Shown one piece after another: positions 13,771 through 43,140 of a stretch of DNA of 64,000 nt. Source of the DNA: Candidatus Goldiibacteriota bacterium (GTDB taxonomy: Bacteria; Oederibacteriota; PGYV01; DSYL01). The first letter of the stretch is position 1. The number at the start of each line of letters is the position of its first letter. The translations under genes and the position numbers were made by a program. Where the stretch lies: NCBI GenBank assembly GCA_018000835.1, contig JAGNJD010000008.1:469-64468 (forward strand). The letters run 5' to 3'. The notes beneath the pieces were generated by a model, which saw only the letters and a list, made by a program, of their open reading frames with translations, did no database searches and was not told where the DNA came from.

Positions 13771-14496
13771 ATGAAAAAGTTTTTTATATTTCTTATAATG
13801 ACGTCCTGTTTAATGGTTAATTTATATGCCAGAAATTCTTTTGACGAAGGCAATAAATTATATTTAAACGGTAAATATGACGATGCATTAAAAGAATATT
13901 CTGATTTCATAAATAAAAACAAGGATTATTATGAAGGTTATTATAATGCCGGAAATGCATATTTCCGTCTTGGCGATTATCAAAAAGCACTTGAAATGTA
14001 TAAAAAGGCCTATGAATTAAACAGTAAAGACGAAGACGTAACGCATAACATGAAAATTGCAGAGGAAAAACTGAAAAAACAGCAGTCGCAGTGTGACAAT
14101 AAAAACCAGCAGAATAAAAATCAGGATAACAAGTCGCAGGGAAGCAGTCAGGGACAGCAGTCGCAGTCACAGCAAAATCAGCAGGGACAGCAAAGCCAGC
14201 AGAAGCAGGCAGAAAATAACAATAGCCAGCAGCAAAATCAAAATCAGCAGCAATATTCAGGAATGACAGATGACGAAGTTCAGGCTATATTAAACATGAA
14301 AAAAAAGCAGGAGCAGAAGTTAAAGCAGTATTTTGGGAACCAGCAGAGAAAAAACAACAGAAACGACGATTTCCCCGATTTCTTTAACATGTCTCCCGAC
14401 GAAATAATGAGATACATGGAACAGCGAATGATGAACCCATTTGAAGAACCGGAAAGAAAAAGCGGCGGCGGAAGCGGGGATAAAAAGGACTGGTAA
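13771..14496 (+). CDS. Secreted TPR protein with Gln/Asn-rich region, BatC-like
   Basis: The 241-residue protein has a signal peptide (about 1-21). Two to three TPR units follow (about 24-110; YNAGNAYFRLGDYQKALEMYKKAY is the clearest), then a low-complexity Gln/Asn/Ser-rich stretch (about 112-165). The C-terminus is charged, with a MTDDEVQAILN segment near 168 and a Gly/Ser-rich tail. The layout resembles the BatC proteins of 'aerotolerance' (Bat) operons. The usual partners (MoxR ATPase, BatA/B/D) are absent here, so the assignment is tentative. It is expressed alone from a good promoter. It would act in the periplasm as a scaffold; no enzyme motif is present. Confidence 0.75.
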   Translation: MKKFFIFLIMTSCLMVNLYARNSFDEGNKLYLNGKYDDALKEYSDFINKNKDYYEGYYNAGNAYFRLGDYQKALEMYKKAYELNSKDEDVTHNMKIAEEKLKKQQSQCDNKNQQNKNQDNKSQGSSQGQQSQSQQNQQGQQSQQKQAENNNSQQQNQNQQQYSGMTDDEVQAILNMKKKQEQKLKQYFGNQQRKNNRNDDFPDFFNMSPDEIMRYMEQRMMNPFEEPERKSGGGSGDKKDW

Positions 14497-15090
14497 ATTA
14501 AGTTAATAACTGCGATGCCGGTTTCAAATTTCCGATAACTACTTTACAGATTTTTTCCATTCTCCGGTTTTTACTCCCTGTTTCAACTCATTCCTATCCG
14601 ATAAAAAATTATATTTCGATTGTTTATTTTTTTGAGGAATTCATTCGAGCCTTTCTGTTGAGGGACGTGGCGGTTTTATACTGCTTCATTACCTTGCTTG
14701 TTCTTTGCATGCGTTTTTGAAATTCATTAGTCGGATGGACGTCTGTTAAAATAAAAAGAGATTGCACAAACCACACAAAACAGGTAAACTGGAACCTGAT
14801 GGAAATATGCAAATAATTTATTAACCGAACAACAATGGTTTCTACTTTCTCCCAAAGGCACTTGGCATCTGCCATTTATCATTAATTTAAAATTCCTGCT
14901 TTAAGTTTACCGGATATCAATAAATTTTACTTTTATAAAAAAACAATACTGTAACCATAGGTTTGATACAAATGCATCCCCGTTATGATCATTTGAAATC
15001 AAATAACTATATAAAAAAAATCCAGAAAATATTATAATCAATTATGTTTATTCTGGTAAGCGGGTATATTGTTAAAATAGGCATTAATAC
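14497..15090. other. Gene-poor intergenic region with repeat remnants
   Basis: A minus-strand frame (14624-14875, 83 codons) has no recognisable motif. Its two ends coincide with dispersed repeats: 14628-14645 is the core of the 49-bp repeat also found at 30850 and 55974, and 14857-14880 resembles the GGCA-rich repeats of 27.4 and 38.4 kb. I see no RNA gene. A TCCAGAA/TTCTGG pair (15021-15056) could form a weak hairpin. Confidence 0.4.
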
Positions 15091-15106
15091 AGGAGGACGC
15101 TAAAAA

Positions 15107-15142
15107 ATGAAAAAAATATTTTTTTTAAAGGTAAAAAATTGA
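15107..15142 (+). CDS. 11-codon leader frame with slippery heptamer before the UbiA gene
   Basis: An ATG at 15107 has an ideal Shine-Dalgarno (AGGAGG, 15091-15096) and encodes MKKIFFLKVKN, then a TGA that overlaps the TTG of the UbiA frame. The run of eight T at 15119-15126 followed by A contains an in-frame T_TTT_TTA, a classical -1 slippery heptamer. A -1 slip, or one more T, would fuse MKKIFFLKGKK directly to the UbiA protein. It may be a frameshift site, a phase-variable tract, a coupled leader peptide, or a sequencing error in the T run. Confidence 0.5.
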   Translation: MKKIFFLKVKN

Positions 15143-16053
15143 CTTTATCTGAAATTTTTTTTCTGACAGCAGGAATAATTTTATTTTTTATTATTTTTTT
15201 CATAATAAAAAATTTTCGCGGTTTTTTTTACGATTCAAGACCATCCCGGTTTATATATTATTCGGTTATATTCGGCTGTGGCTTTTTTCTTGGAATAATA
15301 AAGTCCGGCGCTTTATCAGGAATATCTCTGTGGGTAAATTTTTTATCGGGTTTATTCCTTATAAACGTTCTGTTTCTTTCAAGCACAATATTAAACAACG
15401 TATATGACAAGGACATTGACAGATACAATAAAAAACCCAATCCTCTTATCGGCACAATCAGTAAAAAAGATTACATGAAAATATACTACATCTGCTTTTT
15501 TTCCTCTTTACTCGTTTCCCTCTCATTAAATATAACATCATTTTTTATAACGCTTATAATTCTTGTGACTGCTTTTATATATTCCTGCCCGCCTTTAAGA
15601 GTTAAAAGATTTTTCCCTTTTAACATTATATTAATTGGCTTTTCATCCGTCCTTGCTTTATTTCTCGGTTTTGCATCTTCAAACGAATTTAAAATAATTT
15701 ATGATTTCCCTTACCGTCTGGGAATAGCAATGCTCATCGTGCTATCTCTCGCATTTAACGTAAAAGACATAAACGATTATAAAGGAGATAAAAAATACAA
15801 AATAAAAACCATAATGACGCTTTTCGGTTATAAAAAAGGAAAAATAATAACGGCATTACTTGCTTTTTCCGGTTACGTCCTTCTTCCTGTATTACTGGAT
15901 TTTAAAGTAATGCTTTTTTATAGTTTTATATTCGGAGCCCTTACTTTCATCATAATTATAAAATCAAAAAATGTGGTCAACGAATCTGTAGTATTTTCCG
16001 TTTTTTTTATTTATCTTTTTATTTTTATTCTTCACAAACCGGCTTTATTCTGA
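15139..16053 (+). CDS. UbiA-family prenyltransferase
   Basis: This is a membrane-embedded enzyme that attaches a prenyl chain to an aromatic or polar acceptor. The roughly 300 residues contain about eight membrane segments and both Asp-rich motifs of the family: NNVYDKDIDRYNKKPNP near 94-110 (first NDxxD-type motif) and DINDYKGDKKYKIKT near 212-226 (second). The in-frame start is a TTG at 15139 with only a weak AAAGG upstream. The strong ribosome site belongs to the leader frame at 15107, so the true N-terminus may be MKKIFFLKGKK after a -1 shift. Quinone, heme or lipid substrates are all possible. It is followed at 35 bp by an Lgt-like membrane protein. Confidence 0.85.
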   Translation: MTLSEIFFLTAGIILFFIIFFIIKNFRGFFYDSRPSRFIYYSVIFGCGFFLGIIKSGALSGISLWVNFLSGLFLINVLFLSSTILNNVYDKDIDRYNKKPNPLIGTISKKDYMKIYYICFFSSLLVSLSLNITSFFITLIILVTAFIYSCPPLRVKRFFPFNIILIGFSSVLALFLGFASSNEFKIIYDFPYRLGIAMLIVLSLAFNVKDINDYKGDKKYKIKTIMTLFGYKKGKIITALLAFSGYVLLPVLLDFKVMLFYSFIFGALTFIIIIKSKNVVNESVVFSVFFIYLFIFILHKPALF

Positions 16054-16088
16054 TAAATTAATTCATATTGAAAAAAGGTGACAATTTT

Positions 16089-16862
16089 ATGTTTCCTTAC
16101 GTTTATGCAGGCGATATTGAAATAAGCACTCATTTAATAATGATAATTGCAGGAATTTTATCCGGTTTTCTGCTTTTGTTATACAATATAAAAGATATGG
16201 ACTATAAAACAAAAAAATCCGTTTTATTATTTGCAATTTTGATATTCCTTCCTTTTTTCTTTGGTGGATGGCTAGGACACGTAATTGAAAATTTTATAAG
16301 TAATAAAAGTGCATGCGTTACAAAAAACAATTTATTCTGGTCTTTTTCACTGGTTTGGGGTTTTGCCCTGTCTGTTATTATTGCTTTCCCGTTAACAGGA
16401 TTACTTAAATTAAACATCTGGACTGCAGGAGACATTTTTTCAATGTCAATTGCAATAGGCGGCTTTTTTGCAAAACTTGGTTGTTTTTTTGACGGCTGCT
16501 GCTTTGGTATCCCTTCACCTGAAAATTTCCCATTTGGTATTTTTTATCCTTATGGTTCATATCCACAAACCCTTTTTGGCGACGTAAAATTATACCCGTC
16601 CCAGTTATTTGAATCATTCGCCTGGCTTATTATTTTTATTATTCTGATTTTAAGAAAAAAATATAAATCGTTTGACGGCGAATTAATTATTTTATTGTCT
16701 TTTCTTTTTGGTTTATTCAGATTTTTTATTGAATTTACGCGTTTTCACGTTGTAAAATCATTTTTATCAGAAGGTCAGATTTTTTCTTTAATATTCATAA
16801 TAATTGCACTAATTTGCTATATATTAAAACGCAAACCTTACAAAAAACTTGACAAAATATAA
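16089..16862 (+). CDS. Prolipoprotein diacylglyceryl transferase-like membrane protein
   Basis: The protein has about seven membrane segments and matches the Lgt family: MFPYVYAGDIEISTH at the start, a central LGCFFDGCCFG (near 132-142), YPSQLFESFAW near 176-186, and FRFFIEFTRFH near 215-225. In true Lgt the centre reads like GRxxNFxNGE with an essential Arg; here the place is AKLGCFF, with Lys. The His-Gly of the substrate loop is also not evident (FSLVWGFA). It thus belongs to the GCFxxGCC-type Lgt-like subgroup, whose reaction I do not know. I use the ATG at 16089 because AAAGGTGA precedes it; a TTG at 16068 is in frame. It is probably cotranscribed with the UbiA gene. Confidence 0.75.
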   Translation: MFPYVYAGDIEISTHLIMIIAGILSGFLLLLYNIKDMDYKTKKSVLLFAILIFLPFFFGGWLGHVIENFISNKSACVTKNNLFWSFSLVWGFALSVIIAFPLTGLLKLNIWTAGDIFSMSIAIGGFFAKLGCFFDGCCFGIPSPENFPFGIFYPYGSYPQTLFGDVKLYPSQLFESFAWLIIFIILILRKKYKSFDGELIILLSFLFGLFRFFIEFTRFHVVKSFLSEGQIFSLIFIIIALICYILKRKPYKKLDKI

Positions 16863-16877
16863 TTTTAAATGTATATT
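16849..16877 (+). promoter_or_regulatory. Promoter of the pilin-like cluster
   Basis: A perfect TTGACA (16849-16854), 17 bp, then TATATT (16872-16877). The -35 lies inside the last codons of the Lgt-like gene. The ATG of the pilin-like gene is at 16915 behind GAAGGA. Confidence 0.7.
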
Positions 16878-16914
16878 TACTATGAAATTATTATATTAAT
16901 TGAAGGATATTGTT

Positions 16915-19548
16915 ATGAAGTCAAAAAATAAAAAGAAAAATAAAGGGTTTACATTTATTGAAACAATGATTGTTTCAGTAATAATTGCATTTGTCATAAC
17001 TGCATCTGTAGACCTGATTTCACGGGTTTACAGGGGAATTACCATGAATCAGTTAAAAACTTATTCAGCCAACATTGCTTCTGAAAATCTCGAATTATTA
17101 AAAGACATTGGTTTTAATTCACTTAACGTAACCCCTGATGAATGTCTTCCTGACCCGCTTTCAAAACTTGAAACTTCCAATTGTCCTTCAAATCCATATC
17201 CGGTTGAAAACGTTTTTTTAAATTCAAAACCATTTAAAGTATACAAATACGTCCAGTATGCAAATGAAGACGAAGAAGGAAACATAGTTCCAAGAAAACT
17301 TGTAGAGTTAGGCGCCGGCTCTGACATGAATACAAAGCAGATTACAGTAGTCGTTGCTTATGAAGCAGATGGCATGACAAAAACAACAAAAACAACAGGA
17401 TTATTAACTTATAAGGAAGTCCCGCTTGCAGGTTCAACAATATCAGGTAGGATTATGAAAAAACTACCTGATGACTCCATTGTAAATCCGGGGCTTGGTT
17501 CAAATGCAACGGTTTATTTTACGGGATTCCCAGGATATACGACTACAATAAGTGACGACGATGGTCGTTATTCAGTGAGCGGCGTTATGCCTGGTTCTTA
17601 CGTTTTATATGCTTCAGGTCTTGGGTTTAATACTACCTATTATGCTTCAAATCCACTAATAGTTACAAAGGCAGGCTCAACAATAACGGACGTAAATTTT
17701 ATATGCCAGGCAATACAAGGAGCAGAAATAGGCGGCCATGTTTACATCCATATAACTATGGCACCTTCATCAACACCAACTGTAACTTTTACACCGGTAA
17801 TCCAGCCAACCAACACGCCAATTACAGGAACGATAATTTTAAATGCAAAAGGCTCAATGTCAGGCAAATCATCAACATGGAATAATCCATCAAATATACA
17901 GATAAACGACGGTCAGTCTGCATATGGAGATAATACAAATGACCTTCTATACACTGAATTTCAGGATGATAATATTGAAAACAGTACCATAACAGCCGTA
18001 AGAATAAAAGGATTAATTTATTCTCTTGCTTTATTGGGCGTCACAAATGGCATCAGAATACACCTGACAAAAGACAGCGGCGCACACTGGGCTGATACTT
18101 CTGTGCCAAACGGCTGGACAGGATCAATTACAACTGTTTATGCATCATGGAATTATCCAAGCATTTTTTCAGGATATGTTACAAGGCAAACAGATATAAC
18201 AAATTTATATACAACATGGGACTGGACAAAAGTCAATAGTCTTGGTGCTTGTTTTAGACACAATACAACCAGTACAGGATATATTGACTATGCATATCTC
18301 GAAGTTGATTACCGCATTGCAACACCTACCCCAACACCTGCTGAACCAACTTTTACTTATACTCCTACAATCGAGCCTACAGATACGCCCATTCCATGCG
18401 CAGATGGTTCCATAGTAAAATCAATGGATGGCCTTTCCCTTCCAACCGTATCTGCTGCATGCAATTACGTAATTCAGAACATAGACCCTACTTATGGATT
18501 TACGTCCGTATCTGCAACTTTTTATTATGGCGGAAAATCGTATTATAAATATCTGACAGGCGTCCCCGTTGCAGTTGCAACGAGAACTTATCTTGATATA
18601 TGGCTTGAAGAATCAACAGGCGTTCCTACAATTAATGGCTTTGTCTACGATGCGGTAAACAGGACTTTACCAGTAGTGAACGCGTCCGTTTATCTTTCTG
18701 ACCCGATTGACGTAACCGCAACTACGTCAGGCGGAGGTATGTATACAATAATGCCGGTAACTCCAGGTTCCTGGCAGTTATGGGCTTCTGCTCCGGGATA
18801 TAAGGTTGAAAACGTAATTAATATAACCGTATTGCAGGGCATCAATAATGCTCCCAATCTTTACCTTTATCCGATTGGAAACGTATCCGGCTGGGTTACG
18901 GATGATATTTCAGGTGAGCCTGTTTCAGGCATAACCGTGCAGTTATATAACAGTGCCCATACTCTGATAGGAAGTTCTTATACCGATGTTGACGGCTCCT
19001 ATTCAATAAAAGAAGTTCCTGCTGGTTCAAATTATAAATTATCCTTATCACTTACAAGTAATTATGAGTGCACATTTCCTGCATCCGGATACATTTACCC
19101 CGTTTCTGTCATAAAAAGTGCAACGACTGCAAACCAGAATTTCAGGATTAAACAGACATATGGAACAATAGAAGGCAAAATACAGATTGACGGGGTTGAT
19201 ATCACGGAAGGCATCCTTGTAGTTGCATACCCGTCGTCAGTAACGTATTATGCACATAACTATACCATGACTTCATCGCAGGATTATCTGCAGGGATATA
19301 CAGGCAGAATGAAAAATTTTTATCCTTCTTACGGCGTTATTTCCCAAAGGGATGCCAATTTTAAAATAAGCGTTCCGCTTGGGCAGACATATAACGTATA
19401 TGCTTATTATTCTTATTTAAGTTATACAGGCACAGTTGACAATCCCGTAAAAACACTGAAAAAATATTATAAAAAATTAACAGATATAAATCCAGAAACC
19501 GTAAATAATAACATAACCGGTCCGTTAAATTCCTGGACCGAGTATTAA
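16915..19548 (+). CDS. Very large type IV pilin-like protein with carboxypeptidase-regulatory-like repeats
   Basis: The 877-residue protein starts with a basic leader and a prepilin peptidase site (KGFTFIE, residues 10-16; cleavage after Gly11), then a hydrophobic pilin helix. This is normally the mark of 150-200-residue pilins and pseudopilins. The rest is an extended ectodomain: an Ig-like carboxypeptidase-regulatory-like domain (about 173-265), a Thr/Pro linker (about 283-303), a roughly 165-residue beta domain ending YAYLEVDYR, a second Thr/Pro linker (about 468-494), a small beta domain, and two more regulatory-like domains (about 570-655 and 656-745). It is the first gene of a five-gene cluster and has its own promoter. 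Display at the tip of a pilus or type II secretion pseudopilus is likely; adhesion is inference. Confidence 0.85.
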   Translation: MKSKNKKKNKGFTFIETMIVSVIIAFVITASVDLISRVYRGITMNQLKTYSANIASENLELLKDIGFNSLNVTPDECLPDPLSKLETSNCPSNPYPVENVFLNSKPFKVYKYVQYANEDEEGNIVPRKLVELGAGSDMNTKQITVVVAYEADGMTKTTKTTGLLTYKEVPLAGSTISGRIMKKLPDDSIVNPGLGSNATVYFTGFPGYTTTISDDDGRYSVSGVMPGSYVLYASGLGFNTTYYASNPLIVTKAGSTITDVNFICQAIQGAEIGGHVYIHITMAPSSTPTVTFTPVIQPTNTPITGTIILNAKGSMSGKSSTWNNPSNIQINDGQSAYGDNTNDLLYTEFQDDNIENSTITAVRIKGLIYSLALLGVTNGIRIHLTKDSGAHWADTSVPNGWTGSITTVYASWNYPSIFSGYVTRQTDITNLYTTWDWTKVNSLGACFRHNTTSTGYIDYAYLEVDYRIATPTPTPAEPTFTYTPTIEPTDTPIPCADGSIVKSMDGLSLPTVSAACNYVIQNIDPTYGFTSVSATFYYGGKSYYKYLTGVPVAVATRTYLDIWLEESTGVPTINGFVYDAVNRTLPVVNASVYLSDPIDVTATTSGGGMYTIMPVTPGSWQLWASAPGYKVENVINITVLQGINNAPNLYLYPIGNVSGWVTDDISGEPVSGITVQLYNSAHTLIGSSYTDVDGSYSIKEVPAGSNYKLSLSLTSNYECTFPASGYIYPVSVIKSATTANQNFRIKQTYGTIEGKIQIDGVDITEGILVVAYPSSVTYYAHNYTMTSSQDYLQGYTGRMKNFYPSYGVISQRDANFKISVPLGQTYNVYAYYSYLSYTGTVDNPVKTLKKYYKKLTDINPETVNNNITGPLNSWTEY

Positions 19549-19558
19549 GGATTAAATT

Positions 19559-20221
19559 ATGCTTAAAATAAATAAAAGTAAAAAGGGTTTTACTCTTATA
19601 GAAGCAATGATTTCAGCTGCTATTATATCCATTGTCAGCATTGGCATGTATAATCTGCTGCGCGACGGGATGTATATGTGGAATTCAGGTCTTGCAAAAA
19701 TGACGTTAACGACAGAAGGAAAAATAACCATGACTATGATAAAAAAAGCCATTCAGCAGTGCCAGGGAACAACAATTCGTATTTCAAGATTTGATTCAAA
19801 CCAGCCGGCAAATAGTTATATATCTATGGTTTTAACAGAACCGATTTTTGTCAAAACTACCGTCCAGAGATGCGGTTGCGGTTCAACATCTGATGCAATT
19901 ACGGTTGGTGCTGTCGGTGCGCCGGTTGAAATATACCAGTATAATAATTATCTGCGTGTTGTTTATCCTGAGATAAAACCTGGAACAGACCTTGGAGATT
20001 CAGAAGCAGTACAGGCAAATACATATTACAAGACGCTTACTATTTCTGCAAACGTAGAATCTATAATGTTTTCTTTTGTTGATTCAAAGAAAGGCAAAGC
20101 AATAAATACTGCCGGAAGATTTTCCAAATTTGTATGGAATAACAAAAGTCCGGTTTCAATTTTTCTAAAAGAAACAGTAATTGTGAAACGTATGCATAGT
20201 GCCGGATATTTTCACAATTAA
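19559..20221 (+). CDS. Pseudopilin / minor pilin (PilW/GspJ-like)
   Basis: The 220-residue protein has a class III signal: SKKGFTLIEAM at residues 6-16 with cleavage after Gly9, then a hydrophobic helix and a soluble domain of about 180 residues. The order after the leader (WNSGLAKM, then GKITMTMIKKAIQQ) resembles GspJ/PilW minor pilins, which seed or cap pilus assembly. A Cys-Gly-Cys-Gly stretch (RCGCGS near 101-106) is uncommon and may form a disulfide. It follows the large pilin-like gene by 10 bp and precedes the next by 16 bp, so it is in the same operon. No assembly ATPase or secretin is nearby. Confidence 0.85.
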   Translation: MLKINKSKKGFTLIEAMISAAIISIVSIGMYNLLRDGMYMWNSGLAKMTLTTEGKITMTMIKKAIQQCQGTTIRISRFDSNQPANSYISMVLTEPIFVKTTVQRCGCGSTSDAITVGAVGAPVEIYQYNNYLRVVYPEIKPGTDLGDSEAVQANTYYKTLTISANVESIMFSFVDSKKGKAINTAGRFSKFVWNNKSPVSIFLKETVIVKRMHSAGYFHN

Positions 20222-20237
20222 TTTACAGGAGTAAAAA

Positions 20238-21803
20238 ATGAAAAAGAAAAAAGCACAGGCTCTGCCATTTGTAATTGTAGTGGCTGCTGTTTTTTCCCTG
20301 CTAAGTCTTGCTCTTCTTGATTTATTCAGCATTGAGACAAAACAATTGGTAAGAACAAGTTGTATAATGCAAAAACAGGAACTCGCATCTCTTGCACTGG
20401 AACATGCCATCATGAAGTTACAGCAGGGCACAAACTGGTATAACGTCAGTTCGCTTACAAATTTAAGGGGATACTCAAAAGAATTTGAATCCCCGATAGG
20501 TAAATATGCAATACACATCGCAGATGGAAATTTATTTTTTAGCAATCTCACCGACTCAAATTCCCGTCAGGCAAAAGACGAATACAAAACAATAGGCATA
20601 AAAGTAAAATCAAAAATTCTTGATTGCACCGGTGAATATTATGCAGTCGTACAGAGAAAAATGCTTGGAGGACCTTTGATTTCAAAAGGTAAAATTGATC
20701 TTCCGTGCACTGATGCAAAAATAGATGACTCCAATTTTTACTGGGGTGACATATTTTCTGCAAATACAAACAATGGTTATTGCAGACTTCCCCGCGTTGA
20801 AGTCGCAAAAGGAAGTCCGACACAATACTGGCTGCCAAAAGTATATTCAGCAGCTGATATATATACCTCCGTTGGTTATACAGGTGGCAGGTCAGGACCT
20901 AATTATACTTTTGCATCAACCTACGATGATATGAGTCCGACTGCCCATTGTCATCCATTTTCACAATATGCAACTGCACCTGATATTGATTTTGATTATT
21001 TTAAAGGACTGGCAAAGGAAAACAAGGCATATTATGGTCCTGCCAATATACCAGGGATAGGACCAAATCCATATTATAACGCCGACCAGGATATCAGTAA
21101 GGTCTCCCAGGCAAATATTGTTACAATTATGGCTAAATTAAAATCACCTTCCTCTGTTTTATTTATTGACACAACAGACGGATTGCCAGTAAGATATTCA
21201 CCATGTAATACGTATTCAGGCAGCGTTTCAGTAACTGCAAACTTAGCCACAGATAAAACTTTGCGATTTTACGTTAACAACTCAAATCAATATATGACCT
21301 ATGGTCAGATGTTTATTATGGGACCACTGATATTTATAGGAGATTCTCCTTCCAATATCTCTAATACCTATGGATATACATGGGGTTACGGTTTTTATAC
21401 AGGAAACGACATTGATGACGTTGGAAAAGTTAAGCATCCTGATAATAATTATTTTCCACAGTTAAGTGATAATAATCATTATGTCAGAAATCTTATTGAT
21501 GATTCTCAATCCCGGCTTACAAATACAAAACATGCAGGATTAATTTATGTAAACGGGGAACTGAGAATCGGGGGGCAGCGTTCCGGTAGTTCCAATTATT
21601 CAAATATATGCATATATGGGACTATTTTTCTTGGAGAAAAGGGACGTCTTGATATGGATACCACAAATGACAACCCGTATCTTTATGTATATTACGATAA
21701 AAATCTTAATCTTTTTGGTTTTAATGGAATGTCTGTGGATACTGTATCATTTGGTGAGATAACATATCTTGTCCCAACTCCTGAACCGCAATACCCATTT
21801 TAG
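20238..21803 (+). CDS. Pilus-assembly-like protein, PilX/GspK-type N-terminus
   Basis: The 521-residue protein begins KKKKAQALPFVIVVAAVFSLLSLALLDL. This is a basic leader and hydrophobic helix like PilX and GspK minor pilins, but without the usual Phe-Thr-Leu-Ile-Glu core, so prepilin cleavage is not certain. After residue 60 it is a long, Tyr/Asn/Ser-rich, probably beta-structured domain with no motif I recognise. It ends in a Pro-rich tail (LVPTPEPQYPF). A good ribosome site (CAGGAG) sets the start. Its position after two pilin-like genes supports a role as a minor pilin or exported cargo. Confidence 0.7.
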   Translation: MKKKKAQALPFVIVVAAVFSLLSLALLDLFSIETKQLVRTSCIMQKQELASLALEHAIMKLQQGTNWYNVSSLTNLRGYSKEFESPIGKYAIHIADGNLFFSNLTDSNSRQAKDEYKTIGIKVKSKILDCTGEYYAVVQRKMLGGPLISKGKIDLPCTDAKIDDSNFYWGDIFSANTNNGYCRLPRVEVAKGSPTQYWLPKVYSAADIYTSVGYTGGRSGPNYTFASTYDDMSPTAHCHPFSQYATAPDIDFDYFKGLAKENKAYYGPANIPGIGPNPYYNADQDISKVSQANIVTIMAKLKSPSSVLFIDTTDGLPVRYSPCNTYSGSVSVTANLATDKTLRFYVNNSNQYMTYGQMFIMGPLIFIGDSPSNISNTYGYTWGYGFYTGNDIDDVGKVKHPDNNYFPQLSDNNHYVRNLIDDSQSRLTNTKHAGLIYVNGELRIGGQRSGSSNYSNICIYGTIFLGEKGRLDMDTTNDNPYLYVYYDKNLNLFGFNGMSVDTVSFGEITYLVPTPEPQYPF

Positions 21804-21811
21804 TTTCTGTA

Positions 21812-23581
21812 ATGAAATTAAATAAAATTTTTATAAATTCTGCCATTATATTTTTATTATTAATTTCTATTATATTTAATAATGTATTTTATGATTCCTA
21901 TCAGGCACCAAAGGCATCTGGTTTTCTTATTACATCATTTTTTATCTTTATTTTGCTTCTCTTTTATAAAAAGAAGGTTAATATTGACCCTGCTGTTATA
22001 TGTGCATTATGTTTATATTATTATTTCTTTATTCAGGTTCTTTTTTACAATAATAACGCTCCTTTTTATTATGTTTTTGTTTTCTTATCCCCTGCTGTCT
22101 TTTTTATTCCGTTATTCCATAAAATTGATAAACCAGAATTTTCATTATTTTTAAATTTTTTGCTTTTTCTTTCATTAATATATGGTTTGTATCAGTTTGC
22201 GTTTCTTGATATAAAAAGGCCGTATTCCTTTTTTGGGAATCCTATCTTTTTTGGAGAATTTATTTGTATTTTGTTTCCTGTCGCCGTTTTTAATTTAACT
22301 GATAAAAATTTTAAAATATTTTCTGTCATTAATATTTCGCTGTCATTAATTGTTTTATTTTTGTGCCAGTCACGTGGAGTTTTATTTTCATTTCTTGTTT
22401 CTATGGTTATATTAATATTCATGCTGATAAAATCAAAAAAACAATATTTATTTGATTTAAAAAATATAATTTATATTTTAATAATCATCGGCTTTGTTGT
22501 TATATTGAAACCAGAAATATTTAAAACAGCCGGAATTTTTATGGATAAAATAAAATCAACCTTTTCACCGGGTAATCAGGAAATATCAGAAAGAATTATG
22601 CTCGGCAAATCATCTTTAAAAATTTTTATGGATAAACCTGTATATGGTGCAGGACCCGGAAGTATAAAAAAATTATTACAATTAAAAGAATCTGATTTTT
22701 TGCGTGAAAATGATTCTTTGAAATTTATTAATTCATCCTATGCACATAATGATTATCTGCAAATAATCAGTGAAACAGGAGTAATCGGGATATTATTGTT
22801 TATCTTTCTAATATTACTTGTTTCTTATATGGTTGAAAAAGAAATTGTTTATTATAATGATAAAGAATATATTTTTACTTTATGTGTTTTTTCTTCTGTA
22901 CTATTTATATTAATTGAATCGTATTTTAATTTTCCATTATTTGTTTTTCCATCATGCATGCTTTTTTATTTTTTTCTTGGATTGTTGTATGGCGACGTAT
23001 CTTCGGATAAAAAGAAATCTGTTTTTTCCTTTCAGCCGGAAATTTTGATAATTCTGATCCTTTTACCGCTTTTTGTTTTTTTTATAAAAGATATAAAAAA
23101 AATAACTTCAAATATTTATTTATCGTCCGCAATAAAACAGACATATTCTGATATAGAAAAGGCAGAAATATTTTTTAAAAAATGCATACTGCTTGATTCT
23201 GAAAATTTTTATAATTTAACAAATTTTGGAACGTTTTATTTTAACGTAAACAAATATGAACAGAGTTTACAAATCTTCAGATATGCACTGGATTTTTATC
23301 CGTATTCAGCTGATATATATTACAATATCGGAATGATTTATAATTTACATGGGCGATATAAAGAAGCAATAAATAATTATAAAATGGCTTTGCATTTATA
23401 CCCTGACTTTTCACAGGCAAATCTTGGTTTGTATGAAATATATTCCAGGATTATGCCTGATAACGAAAATGATTATCTTATATTTTTATACAAAGCAACC
23501 GGAAAGAACCCTGATATAATTAATCAGATGGAAATTAATCCTGTTTATTTAAAGGAGATTACTTTTGAAATTACCCGTTAA
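21812..23581 (+). CDS. O-antigen ligase/polymerase-like membrane protein (Wzy_C) with TPR tail
   Basis: The family transfers glycans from a lipid carrier to lipid A, to other glycans, or (PglL/PilO type) to Ser/Thr of pilins. The 589 residues contain about 12 membrane segments. The Wzy_C core includes LCQSRGVLFSFL near 185-196 (conserved Arg), and the large periplasmic loop contains VYGAGPGSIKKL near 278-289 and YAHNDYLQIISETGVIG near 310-326 (the conserved His-Asn region). After about residue 465 there are two to three TPR units. It lies directly behind three pilin-like genes (8 bp gap), which makes a pilin O-glycosylation role attractive. LPS ligase and polymerase remain possible; the sequence does not decide. 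Confidence 0.82.
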   Translation: MKLNKIFINSAIIFLLLISIIFNNVFYDSYQAPKASGFLITSFFIFILLLFYKKKVNIDPAVICALCLYYYFFIQVLFYNNNAPFYYVFVFLSPAVFFIPLFHKIDKPEFSLFLNFLLFLSLIYGLYQFAFLDIKRPYSFFGNPIFFGEFICILFPVAVFNLTDKNFKIFSVINISLSLIVLFLCQSRGVLFSFLVSMVILIFMLIKSKKQYLFDLKNIIYILIIIGFVVILKPEIFKTAGIFMDKIKSTFSPGNQEISERIMLGKSSLKIFMDKPVYGAGPGSIKKLLQLKESDFLRENDSLKFINSSYAHNDYLQIISETGVIGILLFIFLILLVSYMVEKEIVYYNDKEYIFTLCVFSSVLFILIESYFNFPLFVFPSCMLFYFFLGLLYGDVSSDKKKSVFSFQPEILIILILLPLFVFFIKDIKKITSNIYLSSAIKQTYSDIEKAEIFFKKCILLDSENFYNLTNFGTFYFNVNKYEQSLQIFRYALDFYPYSADIYYNIGMIYNLHGRYKEAINNYKMALHLYPDFSQANLGLYEIYSRIMPDNENDYLIFLYKATGKNPDIINQMEINPVYLKEITFEITR

Positions 23582-24812
23582 AAAAATGAACAACATTATA
23601 AAGAGTCTTGAAAACTACCATATAACTCCTTTTAATTTTTTTATTTTACTGCTTTCAATCTGTTTTATAAGAAATTTTCTTGAGGGATTTATTGGTTATT
23701 CGAAAACAATAGGAACAAACCAGGATATTAAGATAACAATTACCCAGATGGGGGCGCTTTTCAACCTTGAATGGATAACTCTATATCTTTTTATAGTTCT
23801 GCTTATATATTTTATAACAAAAACGAATATTATTTCTATTTTTAAGATATCACTTGTTTTTTATAACATAATAATAATAGTTCCTGTTCTTGATTTTTTT
23901 ATTTATTTCCCGTCAGGATGTAAAATTGATTATTTGTATACTGTAAGCGATTATATCAGTGCTCTATTGTATTTTTTTGTTCCGTTTAAGGACATTAAAG
24001 TGTGCTCCGGTATCAGAATAGAAGTGTTTTTTTCCTGTATTTTTATATTTATGTATATTTTCATAAAAACAGAAAATTTTATGAAATCACTGCTTGGTGC
24101 ATTGATACTTTATTTTCTTGCAATTTCTTCTATGGCCTACCCTGTGTTTATTCTGCTTGTTTTCCTGCCTGTATATCACGGGCAGTTTGATAATTTTGTA
24201 AACAATTTCTTTTTTACACCTTCTTTTCTTGGTTCTTTTTTAAACAAATTTTCAATCATGATTGTTTTCCTGCTTATCCCCCTGCTTTTAATAACTTATA
24301 AAATTTATTATAAAGATAAAAAATTTTTATTCATGATTAAACAAATATTTTCTGTTGATACTTTTATTATATTTTTTACTATTTTTGCAGGTTTTATATC
24401 CGGTTATGGATTTTCTAATTTGTTTACTTCGTTATTTAATATTATATTCCTGATTTTTATCTTTATTTTTTCCTTTACCTTAAATATCTGTCTGACAAAT
24501 AATTTTAAAATAGAAAAAGACATAAAAAAAATTTTATTTATACTGCTGCTGATTTTTGCTCTTTCAATATCTTTTAATAATTTTTTAATGATTGTCTTGT
24601 TATTTTCAGTATGGTATATTTTCAATATTTTTGAACCTTTTATTAAAAGTATATTTTTTGATTTGTTTTTTTATCTGTTTATATTCATTATTTTATTTAT
24701 ATCCAGTTATACAATTGCACCGTCAGAAATACAAATAAATCCGTTAAATTTATCGGTCATAATTTTATTTTCCCTAATTTACCTTTACAGACAAAAAAGG
24801 CATGGTAATTAA
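23565..24812 (+). CDS. Polytopic membrane protein of unknown function
   Basis: The 415-residue protein has about ten to eleven hydrophobic segments with very short loops and no motif I recognise. It overlaps the O-antigen-ligase-like gene by 17 bp. A TTG start at 23565 has a good ribosome site (AAGGAG, 23552-23557); an ATG at 23586 is the alternative. By position it may be a flippase or accessory protein for the same glycan pathway, which is inference only. The stop codon sits in the loop of the terminator at 24795-24832. Confidence 0.7.
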   Translation: MKLPVKKMNNIIKSLENYHITPFNFFILLLSICFIRNFLEGFIGYSKTIGTNQDIKITITQMGALFNLEWITLYLFIVLLIYFITKTNIISIFKISLVFYNIIIIVPVLDFFIYFPSGCKIDYLYTVSDYISALLYFFVPFKDIKVCSGIRIEVFFSCIFIFMYIFIKTENFMKSLLGALILYFLAISSMAYPVFILLVFLPVYHGQFDNFVNNFFFTPSFLGSFLNKFSIMIVFLLIPLLLITYKIYYKDKKFLFMIKQIFSVDTFIIFFTIFAGFISGYGFSNLFTSLFNIIFLIFIFIFSFTLNICLTNNFKIEKDIKKILFILLLIFALSISFNNFLMIVLLFSVWYIFNIFEPFIKSIFFDLFFYLFIFIILFISSYTIAPSEIQINPLNLSVIILFSLIYLYRQKRHGN

Positions 24813-24832
24813 TTATTATTACCATGCCTTTT
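24795..24832. terminator. Bidirectional rho-independent terminator
   Basis: A perfect 15-bp inverted repeat, AAAAGGCATGGTAAT (24795-24809) and ATTACCATGCCTTTT (24818-24832), with an 8-bp loop. The A-run and T-run give a terminator in both directions, matching its place between convergent genes. The TAA of the upstream gene is in the loop. Confidence 0.9.
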
Positions 24833-24855
24833 AATTTAATCTATAGATTTATAGA

Positions 24856-26640
24856 TTATACGAATATCCTTGCAATGACGTGTTCGGGATTTGTTCCAAG
24901 GACTCTCTGCACTATCTGATCTTCACGGACTATTTTTCTTACCATCTCCTTTGCCACGTCGTAATTTCTGTTCGTATATTTTATAATCGTATCCCTTACT
25001 TCCGTCGGCTCTGACTGTGCAACGTATTGAAGCAGTAATCTTACGTTATTTTCTATTGAATAAATGGTTGCATAGCGGAGCAAAACGTTTATTTTCCTTT
25101 TTGACATTTTAGGCGGCGGTCCTAACCCGTTGATGACGTTAAATACGAAATCCATGTAATTCTGGACTGCATCTTCCCTCGACGCAGCATCAACCAGTTC
25201 GGCAGACATGACAAGGTTCATCTTTTTCTGCTCACCCGTCCATTTTACCTGTGCTGATTTTTCTATTTTACCCGTATAATCCCCCATAAACGTTCCTTCA
25301 TTTATGTTTCCACGATAATCATATATGGGGTCTTTGGCAAGATATAAACCGACTGCTTTCATAACCTGGAAATCAACCGGGGTAAATGATACTTTTGCAC
25401 CTTTTTTCCCGGGTTCACCGGACACAATGCCCATTATAAACCTGTCGTCAAAAAAATCAACGAAGTTTCTAATTGGTTCTATTAAAATTGGGGGAATTAA
25501 GTAATTACCATCTTCATCCTTTGGAAAAGCATTTATATGAATTGATAAAATCTTTTTCAATGATTCTATGACGGTCTGTGGAGTTGCAATATAATTTTCG
25601 TTTGCTTTAGTAATATCCGGGATCTGTGCATTTACTAATATTCTCGTGCCGGAAAAAGGCACTCTGTTTGCACTTTTTTCAGATGCATTTACTATTATAG
25701 CATCAACTATGACTTTATCCCTTTTAATTAAATCAAGATGATCCGAAGTGTATGAATTAACCGTTGCGTTTGCTTCTGCTTCCACCATTGTTGAAACTTT
25801 GGAAAGTTCCATGTCCTTTTCTTTTATCTCATCTATGTTTTGTTTAAAAGCAACGAGGGATTCGTGCGCCCTGCCAAAAATTTCAGTATACAATTTTGTA
25901 AAATCAATCAGAACCTTGGCAATTGAATCTGACTTGCCCGCAAGCGAATCAATGTTTTTCTTATCTTCCGGGGATAATTTATGTCCTTTTTGTAAAACAT
26001 TAAAATACGAATTAAGTAAATCAAAATTCATTTTAAAACTTTTAAGCCGGTTGGGGTCAATGCTTGCTATTTTTTCTATCAATGGCTGGATGGTTCTTGA
26101 AATATTTGCACCTGCTTTTACTGCATCGTTTCTTTTCCATTCGAGGGCTGCTTTTAATTTCTTCGGGTCAACCTTGTCATCTTTTGACCTTTTTTTCTTT
26201 CCTGTTGTATCTATTAGTTCAATTTTTCCTTCTGCTATCATTTTCCATTTTTCAGTAACGGAAAAAACTACGTTTGAAAACTGACTTTCTTCCTTTTTAT
26301 CAAAATTCTCCAAAAGCCAGTTATAAATTCCCGTATCAAGAAGCTCTATAACCTTGCCATTATTTTCAACTTTGTCAGCAATTGCCCCGGTATTCAAAAA
26401 CAGCATCTGATGTCTGTTTAATTTGTTCATTCTTTCATTAATCAGGCAAGAAACGAGAGTGTTATAGGCATTTCTTAATTTGTTAACTTTTACGACGTCC
26501 TCTATTTTGTTTCCGCTATCCGATTTTTCCCTGGCATAAAACTCTATGGCGTCCAGAACCGTTTTCTGGACGTCCTGGTCTATTCCTTCAAAAACTTTGT
26601 TTATTGCCTCTCCCCGTGCAATCATTTCCGTATCAGCCAT
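24856..26640 (-). CDS. Large soluble protein of unknown function
   Basis: The 594-residue protein has no signal peptide or membrane segment. It is rich in Lys, Glu, Asn and Ile and looks mainly helical. A Lys/Asp-rich spacer near 150-165 (KKKRSKDDK) separates an N-terminal helical part from the rest. I recognise no catalytic motif or family. The start is well supported (GAGAAGGAGATAAAA before the ATG). The upstream neighbour on the same strand, 196 bp away, is a stand-alone cyclic-nucleotide-binding protein, a pairing that hints at a signal-dependent partner. Confidence 0.75.
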   Translation of the reverse strand: MADTEMIARGEAINKVFEGIDQDVQKTVLDAIEFYAREKSDSGNKIEDVVKVNKLRNAYNTLVSCLINERMNKLNRHQMLFLNTGAIADKVENNGKVIELLDTGIYNWLLENFDKKEESQFSNVVFSVTEKWKMIAEGKIELIDTTGKKKRSKDDKVDPKKLKAALEWKRNDAVKAGANISRTIQPLIEKIASIDPNRLKSFKMNFDLLNSYFNVLQKGHKLSPEDKKNIDSLAGKSDSIAKVLIDFTKLYTEIFGRAHESLVAFKQNIDEIKEKDMELSKVSTMVEAEANATVNSYTSDHLDLIKRDKVIVDAIIVNASEKSANRVPFSGTRILVNAQIPDITKANENYIATPQTVIESLKKILSIHINAFPKDEDGNYLIPPILIEPIRNFVDFFDDRFIMGIVSGEPGKKGAKVSFTPVDFQVMKAVGLYLAKDPIYDYRGNINEGTFMGDYTGKIEKSAQVKWTGEQKKMNLVMSAELVDAASREDAVQNYMDFVFNVINGLGPPPKMSKRKINVLLRYATIYSIENNVRLLLQYVAQSEPTEVRDTIIKYTNRNYDVAKEMVRKIVREDQIVQRVLGTNPEHVIARIFV

Positions 26641-41016: not shown

Positions 41017-43140
41017 TTAAAATTCAAAAATTTTTCCACCGTTTTTATTTATGTCCCATATATGCGGCGGAATTTTCGTTTTGTAATATCTTCCTGAAAT
41101 TGACGAATTTATGATGATCATATTTTCTTCCGGTTTAATGAATTTTAATTTTTTTACGTCGTAACAGCATGAAAAAATTATCCGGTCTTTTGAATTAAGC
41201 AATTCGTCATTTAAGTAACCGGAAAAAACAAAAGTTTTGTCTTTCACGTTTATTTCTGCATAACCATTGTAAAAAGACAGATAAGTATTTTTATCAACGT
41301 AAAAATTATCCCCACTGGATATTAACCTGACTTTTTTATCGTTAACGTATCTGTCAGATAATATGGTTTTAACAAAAAAATTATTCGTTACAATTTTATA
41401 ATTTTGTTCTGCATTGATGGAAAAAAGTACCAGATAATCCAGGATGTTTATCCCCTGCTTTTTTAAAAACAAAATTACGCTGTTACGGATTTCTTTTGCG
41501 TTATCTTCTTTATCGCATCCAATGAATAAAATCTTCTTATTGTTTTTCGTTTTTACAAAAGTTGCCGCCATGTTTTTAATGTCCGGAAAATATACGTAGG
41601 AATCATCCGCCGGAATGCATAGATGGAAAAAAAACATTACGCCGATAATAAATCCGGTTACTTTTTTTAACGAAACTTTTTTGATAAAAACGTCAACATC
41701 GTTGTGCGGCAGAACTATGAAAAATACGTAATATAAAAAAAGAAAAACGAAATTCATTGATTTTACAGATATTGCTGCAAAGGGTATTGTGGATAAAATT
41801 TTTACTATAACTATCATTATTTTTATCATAAACCATATTGTAGCCCCCAGGAAAACTGCAAATTTAACTGAAATGGAGCCAATAATCCATAAAACAAAAC
41901 CAAGTATGGTTATTATGCTTGAAATCGGAACTATAAAAAAATTTGCTATAAAAGAAATTACCGATACCTGATGAAAAGTATTTGCCATTACCGGGAAAAT
42001 AAAAATCTGTGACGTAAAAGTGGTAAGCAAGGTCTCTGACAACCACCCCGGTATGTGTGGAAATTTTTTGCTTGCGTATCCTCCATAATAAATAATACCA
42101 AAGGTGGCGAGAAACGACAGCTGAAAACTAACCATGAATAATTCAAAAGGATTTATCAGTAAAATAAAAAATCCTGCTATGGAAAGTGAATTCATAAGAT
42201 CACTGTCGTATTCTATTACGTATCCTATTAATACAACGTATGCCATAAAAGTTGCACGAACTATAGATGGGTCGGCTCCGGTTATGATTGCAAAAGCAGT
42301 AATGATGATAAGCGTTATTATGGCACTTATCTTTCTGGAAAAGTTAAGCAGTTTTAAAATCAGAAAAACAAGGAGGGCAATTAAGCCAACGTTCATTCCG
42401 GAAACTGCCAGAATGTGTGCAGTCCCGGTTCTTTTAAAATAATCGTTTATCTCTTCCGGCAATATCCTGTAATTGCCAAGCATTATGCCTTCCAGTACTT
42501 TTGCTTCCTCTTCCGGAAGCGTTAAGTATATGATATGAACGAGTTTTTCTTTCAGGTTATATGAAAATTTTAAAAAATAATTCGGCGTTTTTTCTCCGAG
42601 CTGTTCCACGTCTTTTTCTTTTGCGTATAAAGTATAATAAACCGATTTATATCTTAAAAACTTTTTATAATCAAAATCTCCCCTGCTTTTTGGTCCCATG
42701 GGTTCACGCAAAATGCCTTTTATTTTTAATACGTCGCCATACTTCACGTTTAAACCTATGTTTTTTACGATTGTTACCCTTATTTTGCCTTTTACGTTCG
42801 TTATTTTTTCCTTACTATTTTCTATTGAAATTAAATTACCGTCAAAATAAATTTTGTCCTCCGTTTCCTCAACCATTCCGGTTACGTAAACGATGAAATC
42901 CGCTCTTTCTTCAAAGTGCAGATTCTTTATGTGATTTTCCGGAAAATAATACGTCTTAAAAACAGCGTAAAAAAAACCGAGACAAAAAAATAATAAAAAA
43001 TAAACCAGGTCCTTTTTTTTCATAAAACGAAACGTAAAAAAAAGAAAAAATATAATTACAATTAAACCGGTTATTATGTATTCGCTGAAAAAAATGCCTG
43101 AAGCAAGCGAAACAAACAAAAAAATAAACGGCCTGTTCAT
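41017..43140 (-). CDS. comEC: ComEC/Rec2-like DNA-uptake channel with degenerate C-terminal domain
   Basis: ComEC is the inner-membrane channel for single-stranded DNA in natural transformation. The 707-residue protein has the N-terminal membrane anchor and OB-like part (about 1-180; KGKIRVTI, YGDVLKIKGILR). The Competence domain with about eight membrane segments contains GTAHILAVSGMNVGLIAL near 235-252 and GADPSIVRATFMA. The C-terminal third follows the metallo-beta-lactamase layout, but the HxHxDH site reads FSINAEQNYK and other metal ligands are missing. This suggests loss of nuclease activity. It lies 20 bp after comEA, forming a competence pair. Confidence 0.87.
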   Translation of the reverse strand: MNRPFIFLFVSLASGIFFSEYIITGLIVIIFFLFFTFRFMKKKDLVYFLLFFCLGFFYAVFKTYYFPENHIKNLHFEERADFIVYVTGMVEETEDKIYFDGNLISIENSKEKITNVKGKIRVTIVKNIGLNVKYGDVLKIKGILREPMGPKSRGDFDYKKFLRYKSVYYTLYAKEKDVEQLGEKTPNYFLKFSYNLKEKLVHIIYLTLPEEEAKVLEGIMLGNYRILPEEINDYFKRTGTAHILAVSGMNVGLIALLVFLILKLLNFSRKISAIITLIIITAFAIITGADPSIVRATFMAYVVLIGYVIEYDSDLMNSLSIAGFFILLINPFELFMVSFQLSFLATFGIIYYGGYASKKFPHIPGWLSETLLTTFTSQIFIFPVMANTFHQVSVISFIANFFIVPISSIITILGFVLWIIGSISVKFAVFLGATIWFMIKIMIVIVKILSTIPFAAISVKSMNFVFLFLYYVFFIVLPHNDVDVFIKKVSLKKVTGFIIGVMFFFHLCIPADDSYVYFPDIKNMAATFVKTKNNKKILFIGCDKEDNAKEIRNSVILFLKKQGINILDYLVLFSINAEQNYKIVTNNFFVKTILSDRYVNDKKVRLISSGDNFYVDKNTYLSFYNGYAEINVKDKTFVFSGYLNDELLNSKDRIIFSCCYDVKKLKFIKPEENMIIINSSISGRYYKTKIPPHIWDINKNGGKIFEF

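Follow-up and report, generated by a model that had tools for sequence, protein, structure and literature searches.

A pilin gene trio and an adjoining Wzy_C/TPR gene in a Goldbacteria genome: a possible glycosylated type IV pilus tip

We analysed a 64,000-nucleotide stretch of contig JAGNJD010000008.1 (positions 469 to 64,468, forward strand; hereafter, the window) from a Candidatus Goldiibacteriota bacterium, whose assembly measures 2.32 Mb and is 94.5% complete, and focused on a cluster of pilin-like genes followed by a gene for a Wzy_C membrane enzyme. An initial annotation had placed four open reading frames (ORFs) here, and all four proved to be real: 16915-19548, 19559-20221, 20238-21803 and 21812-23581, encoding 877, 220, 521 and 589 amino acids, respectively. 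We found that the co-directional unit extends further (16915-24812, plus strand) and comprises a giant pilin, a GspJ-like pilin, a 521-amino-acid pilin, a Wzy_C/TPR enzyme and a 415-amino-acid multi-pass protein. Gaps of 8-16 base pairs (bp) separate the first four genes. Ribosome sites are recognisable before the starts of the three pilin genes; none is recognisable at the Wzy_C start (21812), which suggests translational coupling to the 521-amino-acid pilin gene. Just upstream of the giant pilin gene, within the 3' end of an Lgt-like gene, lies a candidate promoter (TTGACA-17-TATATT; 16849-16877, plus strand). This consensus match is the single 11/12 sigma-70-like site in 14400-25000; promoter-like sites across the region are no more frequent than in shuffled sequence. 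A bidirectional terminator-like hairpin with a 15-bp stem (24795-24832) closes the unit, lying between it and a convergent gene at 24856-26640.

The order of the first four genes is strongly conserved. A search of 14 genomes of the same order found the cluster in all but one, the exception being a genome of 61% completeness, and the order giant pilin, GspJ-like pilin, 521-amino-acid pilin, Wzy_C gene was kept in 13 of the 13 carrying genomes (G000, G001 and G003-G013). A contig end truncates the Wzy_C gene in two of these (G005 and G012), and G010 has two ORFs in place of one for both the giant pilin and the Wzy_C enzyme. The recurrence of this four-gene order is far from chance.

The giant pilin begins at an ATG with a prepilin signal (MKSKNKKKNKG followed by FTFIET); an alternative in-frame TTG start at 16900 was judged less likely. 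It matches N_methyl (PF07963) at 26.6 bits, against a cut-off of 21.2, and CarboxypepD_reg (PF13620) in three stretches at 83.3 bits, also over cut-off. It therefore joins a class III signal to a non-pilin domain and is a modular pilin, much as first annotated, Thr/Pro linkers included. The CarboxypepD_reg/CnaB-like stalk domains (PF13620, PF13715) occupy residues 572-877 (18628-19548, plus strand). In the AlphaFold model, a helix spanning residues 14-64 is followed by stacked beta domains, for which Foldseek returned matches to SdrD B repeats, PitA and SpaA. Orthologues range from 680 to 913 amino acids, and weak matches in their N-terminal region to the NCBIfam models ComGE (10 of 12) and type_IV_pilV (7 of 12) place the protein in the GspI/PilV/ComGE position. 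PF13620 is among the commonest modules of modular pilins, which are thought to be exposed at the pilus tip (PMC8179133). The giant shares with PilB of S. sanguinis and its relatives the class III signal and the grafted PF13620 domain, an architecture among the 15 commonest (PMC8179133). Unlike these proteins, it has several stacked CnaB-like domains and a mobile insert between Thr/Pro linkers, and it sits in a putative tip operon with a Wzy_C gene.

The two genes that follow also encode minor-pilin-like proteins, as had been proposed. The 220-amino-acid product of 19559-20221 (plus strand) carries a class III prepilin signal (MLKINKSKKG followed by FTLIEA; N_methyl, 32.9 bits) and is of the GspJ/PilW/ComGF type: of 13 orthologues, 9 matched GspJ and 8 matched ComGF, weakly and N-terminally, with the window's member below the curated cut-off. 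The 521-amino-acid product of 20238-21803 (plus strand) is a large minor pilin of the GspK/PilX/ComZ type with a diverged prepilin start (KKKKA followed by QALPFVIV). GspK lacks Glu5, and no acidic residue stands at position 5 in any of the 13 orthologues of the 521-amino-acid pilin; in all of them Gln Q7 of the start (A followed by QALPF) is invariant. We found a weak ComGG match for this protein, no Pfam family match at E ≤ 0.1, and nothing in a PDB sequence search with its alignment.

Together, the family signals follow the I, J, K gene order: PilV/ComGE, GspJ/ComGF, then a weak ComGG match and the missing Glu5, the K assignment being the weakest. The three consecutive prepilin genes thus resemble GspI-J-K, PilV-W-X and ComGE-ComGF-ComGG in their number, their order and a large K subunit without Glu5. 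They differ from these systems in that the I subunit is a giant modular pilin and the K subunit gives no detectable T2SSK/PilX match. We conclude that the three pilins probably constitute a GspI-J-K-like (PilV-PilW-PilX-like) complex, with a presumed location at the tip of a type IV pilus.

A type IV pilus gene set is present elsewhere in the genome, with several PilB/PilT-type ATPases and, on contig C20, PilC, a 156-amino-acid pilin, a prepilin peptidase and PilM. Genome-wide, N_methyl matched four proteins, two of them in this cluster. Because the genome holds one PilB/PilT-like ATPase set, PilC, PilM and a prepilin peptidase together with a separate class III major-type pilin, the gene inventory suggests that the cluster is better read as the tip of an ordinary type IV pilus than as the dedicated appendage first envisaged. 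A search for PilY1 found nothing, but no control gave a signal either, so this result carries no weight.

Such a tip might serve mainly in DNA uptake, with any effect of the enzyme on it secondary. ComZ of Thermus thermophilus carries a beta-solenoid, and both a pilus-tip location and DNA binding have been argued for it (PMC6561018). The AlphaFold model of the 521-amino-acid pilin (mean predicted local distance difference test score (pLDDT) 62, hence mediocre) has a long N-terminal helix at residues 8-62, and its top three PDB fold matches are all ComZ chains (6qvi; E 0.03-0.15, TM-score below 0.2); on this model, both proteins would be large minor pilins with a beta-rich domain. In addition, the window encodes a ComEC-type competence domain (41710-42483, minus strand; E 4.5e-58), found in 11 of the 14 order genomes. 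However, the match to ComZ is weak and has no counterpart in the PDB sequence search, ComEC is widespread, the CnaB-like stalk of the giant suggests adhesion, and no DNA-binding residues were identified. We consider it unlikely that DNA uptake is the main function of the tip.

The fourth gene (21812-23581, plus strand) encodes an O-antigen-ligase-family membrane enzyme with a C-terminal TPR tail, in agreement with the initial annotation (Wzy_C, PF04932, 66.7 bits); the PF04932 domain was found in 10 of 10 members. Residues R188, R261 and H312 do not vary among 10 orthologues and correspond to PglL R224, R298 and H349 (N. meningitidis numbering), the Arg/Arg/His set being matched by motif and spacing to R298-P313-G316-G318-H349 of PglL. 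Equivalent Arg/His residues have been reported to be important in WaaL and PglL (PMC3643930). By hydropathy, nine hydrophobic segments precede the His loop and four follow it, 13 in total; nearly all members show this pattern, and the count after the loop holds in 10 of 10. E. coli WaaL, judged by hydropathy only, has three segments after its His loop, and the enzyme does not fit a 12-segment protein with a cytoplasmic C-terminus. Given a periplasmic His loop and a 13th segment, the TPR tail is predicted to lie on the periplasmic side as well. The enzyme therefore shares with WaaL the PF04932 domain, the catalytic residues and the nine segments before the His loop, and differs from it in the 13th segment, the TPR tail and its location outside any lipopolysaccharide (LPS) core or O-antigen locus, among genes for pilins, an Lgt-like protein, a UbiA-family protein and unassigned products.

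A Wzy_C membrane enzyme encoded next to pilin genes, with conserved Arg/Arg/His and a periplasmic catalytic loop, is also what TfpO/PilO, TfpM, PglS and PglL have in common with this one. The genes for TfpO, TfpM and PglS lie next to those of their pilins (PMC12645811), and 21 of 31 PglL homologues adjoin pilins (PMC3643930). A pilin-linked Wzy_C enzyme thus has precedents. The more specific proposal of a PglL/PilO-type transferase was not supported. At E ≤ 1, none of 10 members matched PglL_A (PF15864). Wzy_C_2 (PF11846) gave sub-threshold matches in 3 of 10 (best E 0.0014), and in the window's member it reached 18.4 bits against a cut-off of 28.5 and overlapped the TPR; where PglL and PglS have Wzy_C_2, this family has a TPR tail predicted to be periplasmic. 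Both domains mark PglL and PglS, not TfpO and TfpM, and the latter two modify a Ser/Thr at the C-terminus of the pilin (PMC12645811). No tip pilin ends in such a residue: Tyr is the last residue in 11 of 12 aligned giants and Pro, closing a short tail, in the other, while the J pilins end in Asn and the K pilins in Phe or Tyr. Furthermore, the neighbours of the enzyme are putative tip pilins rather than a major pilin. Without PglL_A, and without a C-terminal Ser/Thr on the pilins, the enzyme cannot be shown to belong to one of the known classes of pilin oligosaccharyltransferase. A PDB sequence search with its alignment returned only TPR proteins among the matches listed, a tblastn search of plasmids gave no match, and a literature search found no paper linking Wzy_C/TPR proteins to pilins.

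If the enzyme acts on pilins, its acceptor might be sought in the Thr/Pro linkers of the giant, as the initial annotation did in proposing them as natural acceptors for a PglL/PilO-type transferase. Linker 1 comprises residues ~280-308 (17752-17838, plus strand; pLDDT below 50 at 280-301) and linker 2 residues ~464-498 (18304-18408, plus strand; pLDDT below 50 at 471-492); both vary between orthologues. Paired linkers occur in 7 of 13 giants (G000, G001, G006, G008, G010, G012 and G013) and are predicted to be disordered, and PglL enzymes prefer disordered regions (PMC12645811). However, the linkers always flank an insert domain of ~165 residues (residues ~306-470; 17830-18324, plus strand), which G007, G008 and G011 also have at the start of large, Thr-rich secreted proteins, N-terminally placed, and which is therefore a mobile module. 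In two genomes (G003 and G011) both linkers are missing from the giant and a Thr/Pro insert is found instead in the 521-amino-acid pilin, and in four others (G004, G005, G007 and G009) neither protein has a Thr/Pro linker; the Wzy_C gene is still present. Since 6 of 13 giants lack linkers and the Wzy_C gene is constant, the retention of the enzyme in the cluster cannot depend on them. Other large surface proteins encoded in this genome have Thr/Pro linkers too, and such linkers are common in those of the group, and the absence of PglL_A speaks against an enzyme of the PglL kind. Finally, TMEM260-like protein O-mannosyltransferase genes (PF11028) adjoin two other Wzy_C/TPR genes of the genome (L085:11567-13762 and L089:1376-5322) and offer an alternative modifier; PF11028 was assigned by testing two ORFs, and to the third, in L089, by similarity of its start. 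We regard the linkers as improbable specific acceptors, although they could be modified when present. Several relatives have, close to the cluster and in divergent orientation, a gene for a large secreted protein rich in Thr and Pro (L072:678-3626, L068:2286-5000, L076:13172-15808 and L067:522-3767); in this genome a similar gene (L087:4036-7317) adjoins a different Wzy_C gene.

Additional evidence for a link between such enzymes and pilins comes from a second locus. On contig C53 (L086:6665-9453), a 146-amino-acid class III pilin gene lies directly upstream of a 748-amino-acid Wzy_C/TPR gene, which is followed by nrdR. Orthologues of this enzyme (748-846 amino acids) are present in 14 of 14 order genomes (L113-L126), with a pilin just upstream in at least nine and often a HAMP-domain membrane protein between or beside them. 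We estimate the probability that two of three pilin loci would touch a Wzy_C gene by chance at about 2 in 10,000, a rough figure based on ~2,100 genes and eight Wzy_C genes that ignores operon structure. This second lineage supports pilin-directed glycosylation, short of proof. In another family of the phylum (f9; G016 and G022), we found a distant GspK-like pilin (E 3.6e-16 and 1.9e-13) within a pilin trio, with a PMT_2-like protein with TPR encoded directly after the GspK-like gene (L081:8880-11417 and L150:3486-5873; over the Pfam cut-off in G022 only); in G016, a Wzy_C/TPR protein follows the PMT_2-like gene. The best distant Wzy_C/TPR relatives in other orders (L060-L066) do not adjoin pilins, so the link to pilins is not general to all Wzy_C/TPR proteins. 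We also built a tree of the tip enzymes, the genome's other Wzy_C proteins, E. coli WaaL and the f9 enzyme. The tip enzymes form one clade (support 100/99), apart from the genome's other Wzy_C proteins. They do not group with E. coli WaaL, but the branches of WaaL, of the f9 enzyme and of the most divergent Wzy_C copies in the genome exceed 1.5 to 4 changes per site and are too long for a placement.

The strongest alternative, and a real possibility, is that the pilins form a tip complex with which a surface-polysaccharide polymerase or ligase is merely co-expressed, without acting on them. The genome encodes eight or nine Wzy_C domains, which leaves room for both polysaccharide and pilin roles, and polysaccharide roles must be filled. 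A WaaL function could not be excluded by a lack of lipid A, as LpxC, and with it lipid A synthesis, is present in 13 of the 14 order genomes. Moreover, WaaL, Wzy and O-oligosaccharyltransferases all belong to PF04932 and are inseparable by simple similarity (PMC3643930), and the enzyme lacks the PglL_A domain. On the other hand, the cluster contains no glycosyltransferases, Wzx flippase or O-antigen genes; a 417-amino-acid, 12-segment Wzy_C protein without TPR on contig C40 is a better WaaL candidate; and this alternative would have to treat as coincidental that two separate Wzy_C lineages adjoin pilins.

We favour, at a probability of roughly 40%, the hypothesis that the operon encodes a type IV pilus tip together with an enzyme that glycosylates it, as the best single explanation. 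The three minor pilins would form a GspI-GspJ-GspK-like tip or initiation complex, to which the giant would contribute its CnaB/CarboxypepD_reg domains as an adhesive stalk, and the 521-amino-acid subunit a large beta-rich domain. The Wzy_C/TPR protein would take a lipid-linked glycan on the periplasmic face, the site of its predicted His loop and TPR tail, and transfer it to at least one of the three pilins ahead of assembly, docking probably taking place at the TPR. This hypothesis draws on the invariable four-gene order, the short intergenic gaps, the one candidate promoter and the terminator, the family signals in I, J, K order, the weak fold match to ComZ, the frequency of PF13620 on modular pilins, the invariant catalytic residues, the separate clade of the tip enzymes, the second pilin-Wzy_C pair and the PMT_2-like/Wzy_C neighbours in f9.

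Several observations weigh against it. About 10 of the 13 genomes also have the convergent gene (24856 in the window) nearby, so part of the conservation is general synteny, and conserved adjacency by itself makes a weak case for linkage here. The fold match of the 521-amino-acid pilin to ComZ is statistically not significant, and the enzyme has no PglL_A domain. Between the congeners G000 and G001, the enzyme is 50% identical, compared with 81-85% for the pilins. Polysaccharide polymerases and ligases tend to diverge fast, and this rapid change relative to its neighbours fits either such an enzyme or a transferase that tracks a changing glycan. Finally, gene content, operon layout, conservation across the order and the conserved catalytic residues are direct observations, but the tip location, the acceptor, the glycan, the activity of the enzyme and the role of the TPR are inferred. 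A broader proposal, that a 13th segment and a periplasmic TPR define, among Wzy_C proteins, an as yet unnamed class of O-oligosaccharyltransferases directed at pilins, of which this one is dedicated to the tip and the other pilin-linked Wzy_C/TPR protein serves a different pilin, seems to us rather doubtful.

Known pilin-specific transferases act on major or ComP-type pilins. If glycosylation of the tip is correct, a tip-tied transferase would put glycan where the pilus meets its target, and there would be a testable function for the Wzy_C/TPR proteins, a large and poorly named group. Goldbacteria have been recovered attached to cellulose particles (PMC7031533), which makes a pilus tip a plausible attachment device; our literature search found no pilus work on this phylum.

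The flanking genes show looser ties to the cluster. The gene for the 415-amino-acid multi-pass membrane protein, of unassigned family (23565-24812, plus strand), overlaps the Wzy_C gene at its start, has a Shine-Dalgarno sequence (AAAGGAG) before a TTG start and is kept in 8 of 13 clusters. Upstream, an Lgt-like paralogue (16068-16862, plus strand) adjoins the cluster in 9 of 13 genomes and is possibly associated with it functionally. It scores 102.8 bits, compared with 221.7 bits for a canonical-looking Lgt encoded elsewhere (G000:C63:10585-11313), and a C-x4-GCC-x-G stretch is invariant in the cluster version. A UbiA-family prenyltransferase gene (15139-16053, plus strand) also adjoins the cluster. 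It lies upstream of the Lgt-like gene in most genomes and between the Wzy_C gene and the 415-amino-acid homologue in G008 (L073:4812-5753), and this movement within the cluster hints at a functional association. The G+C content of the Wzy_C gene and the 415-amino-acid gene (21812-24812) is 24-25%, compared with 36-39% in the adjoining pilin genes and ~34% in the window.

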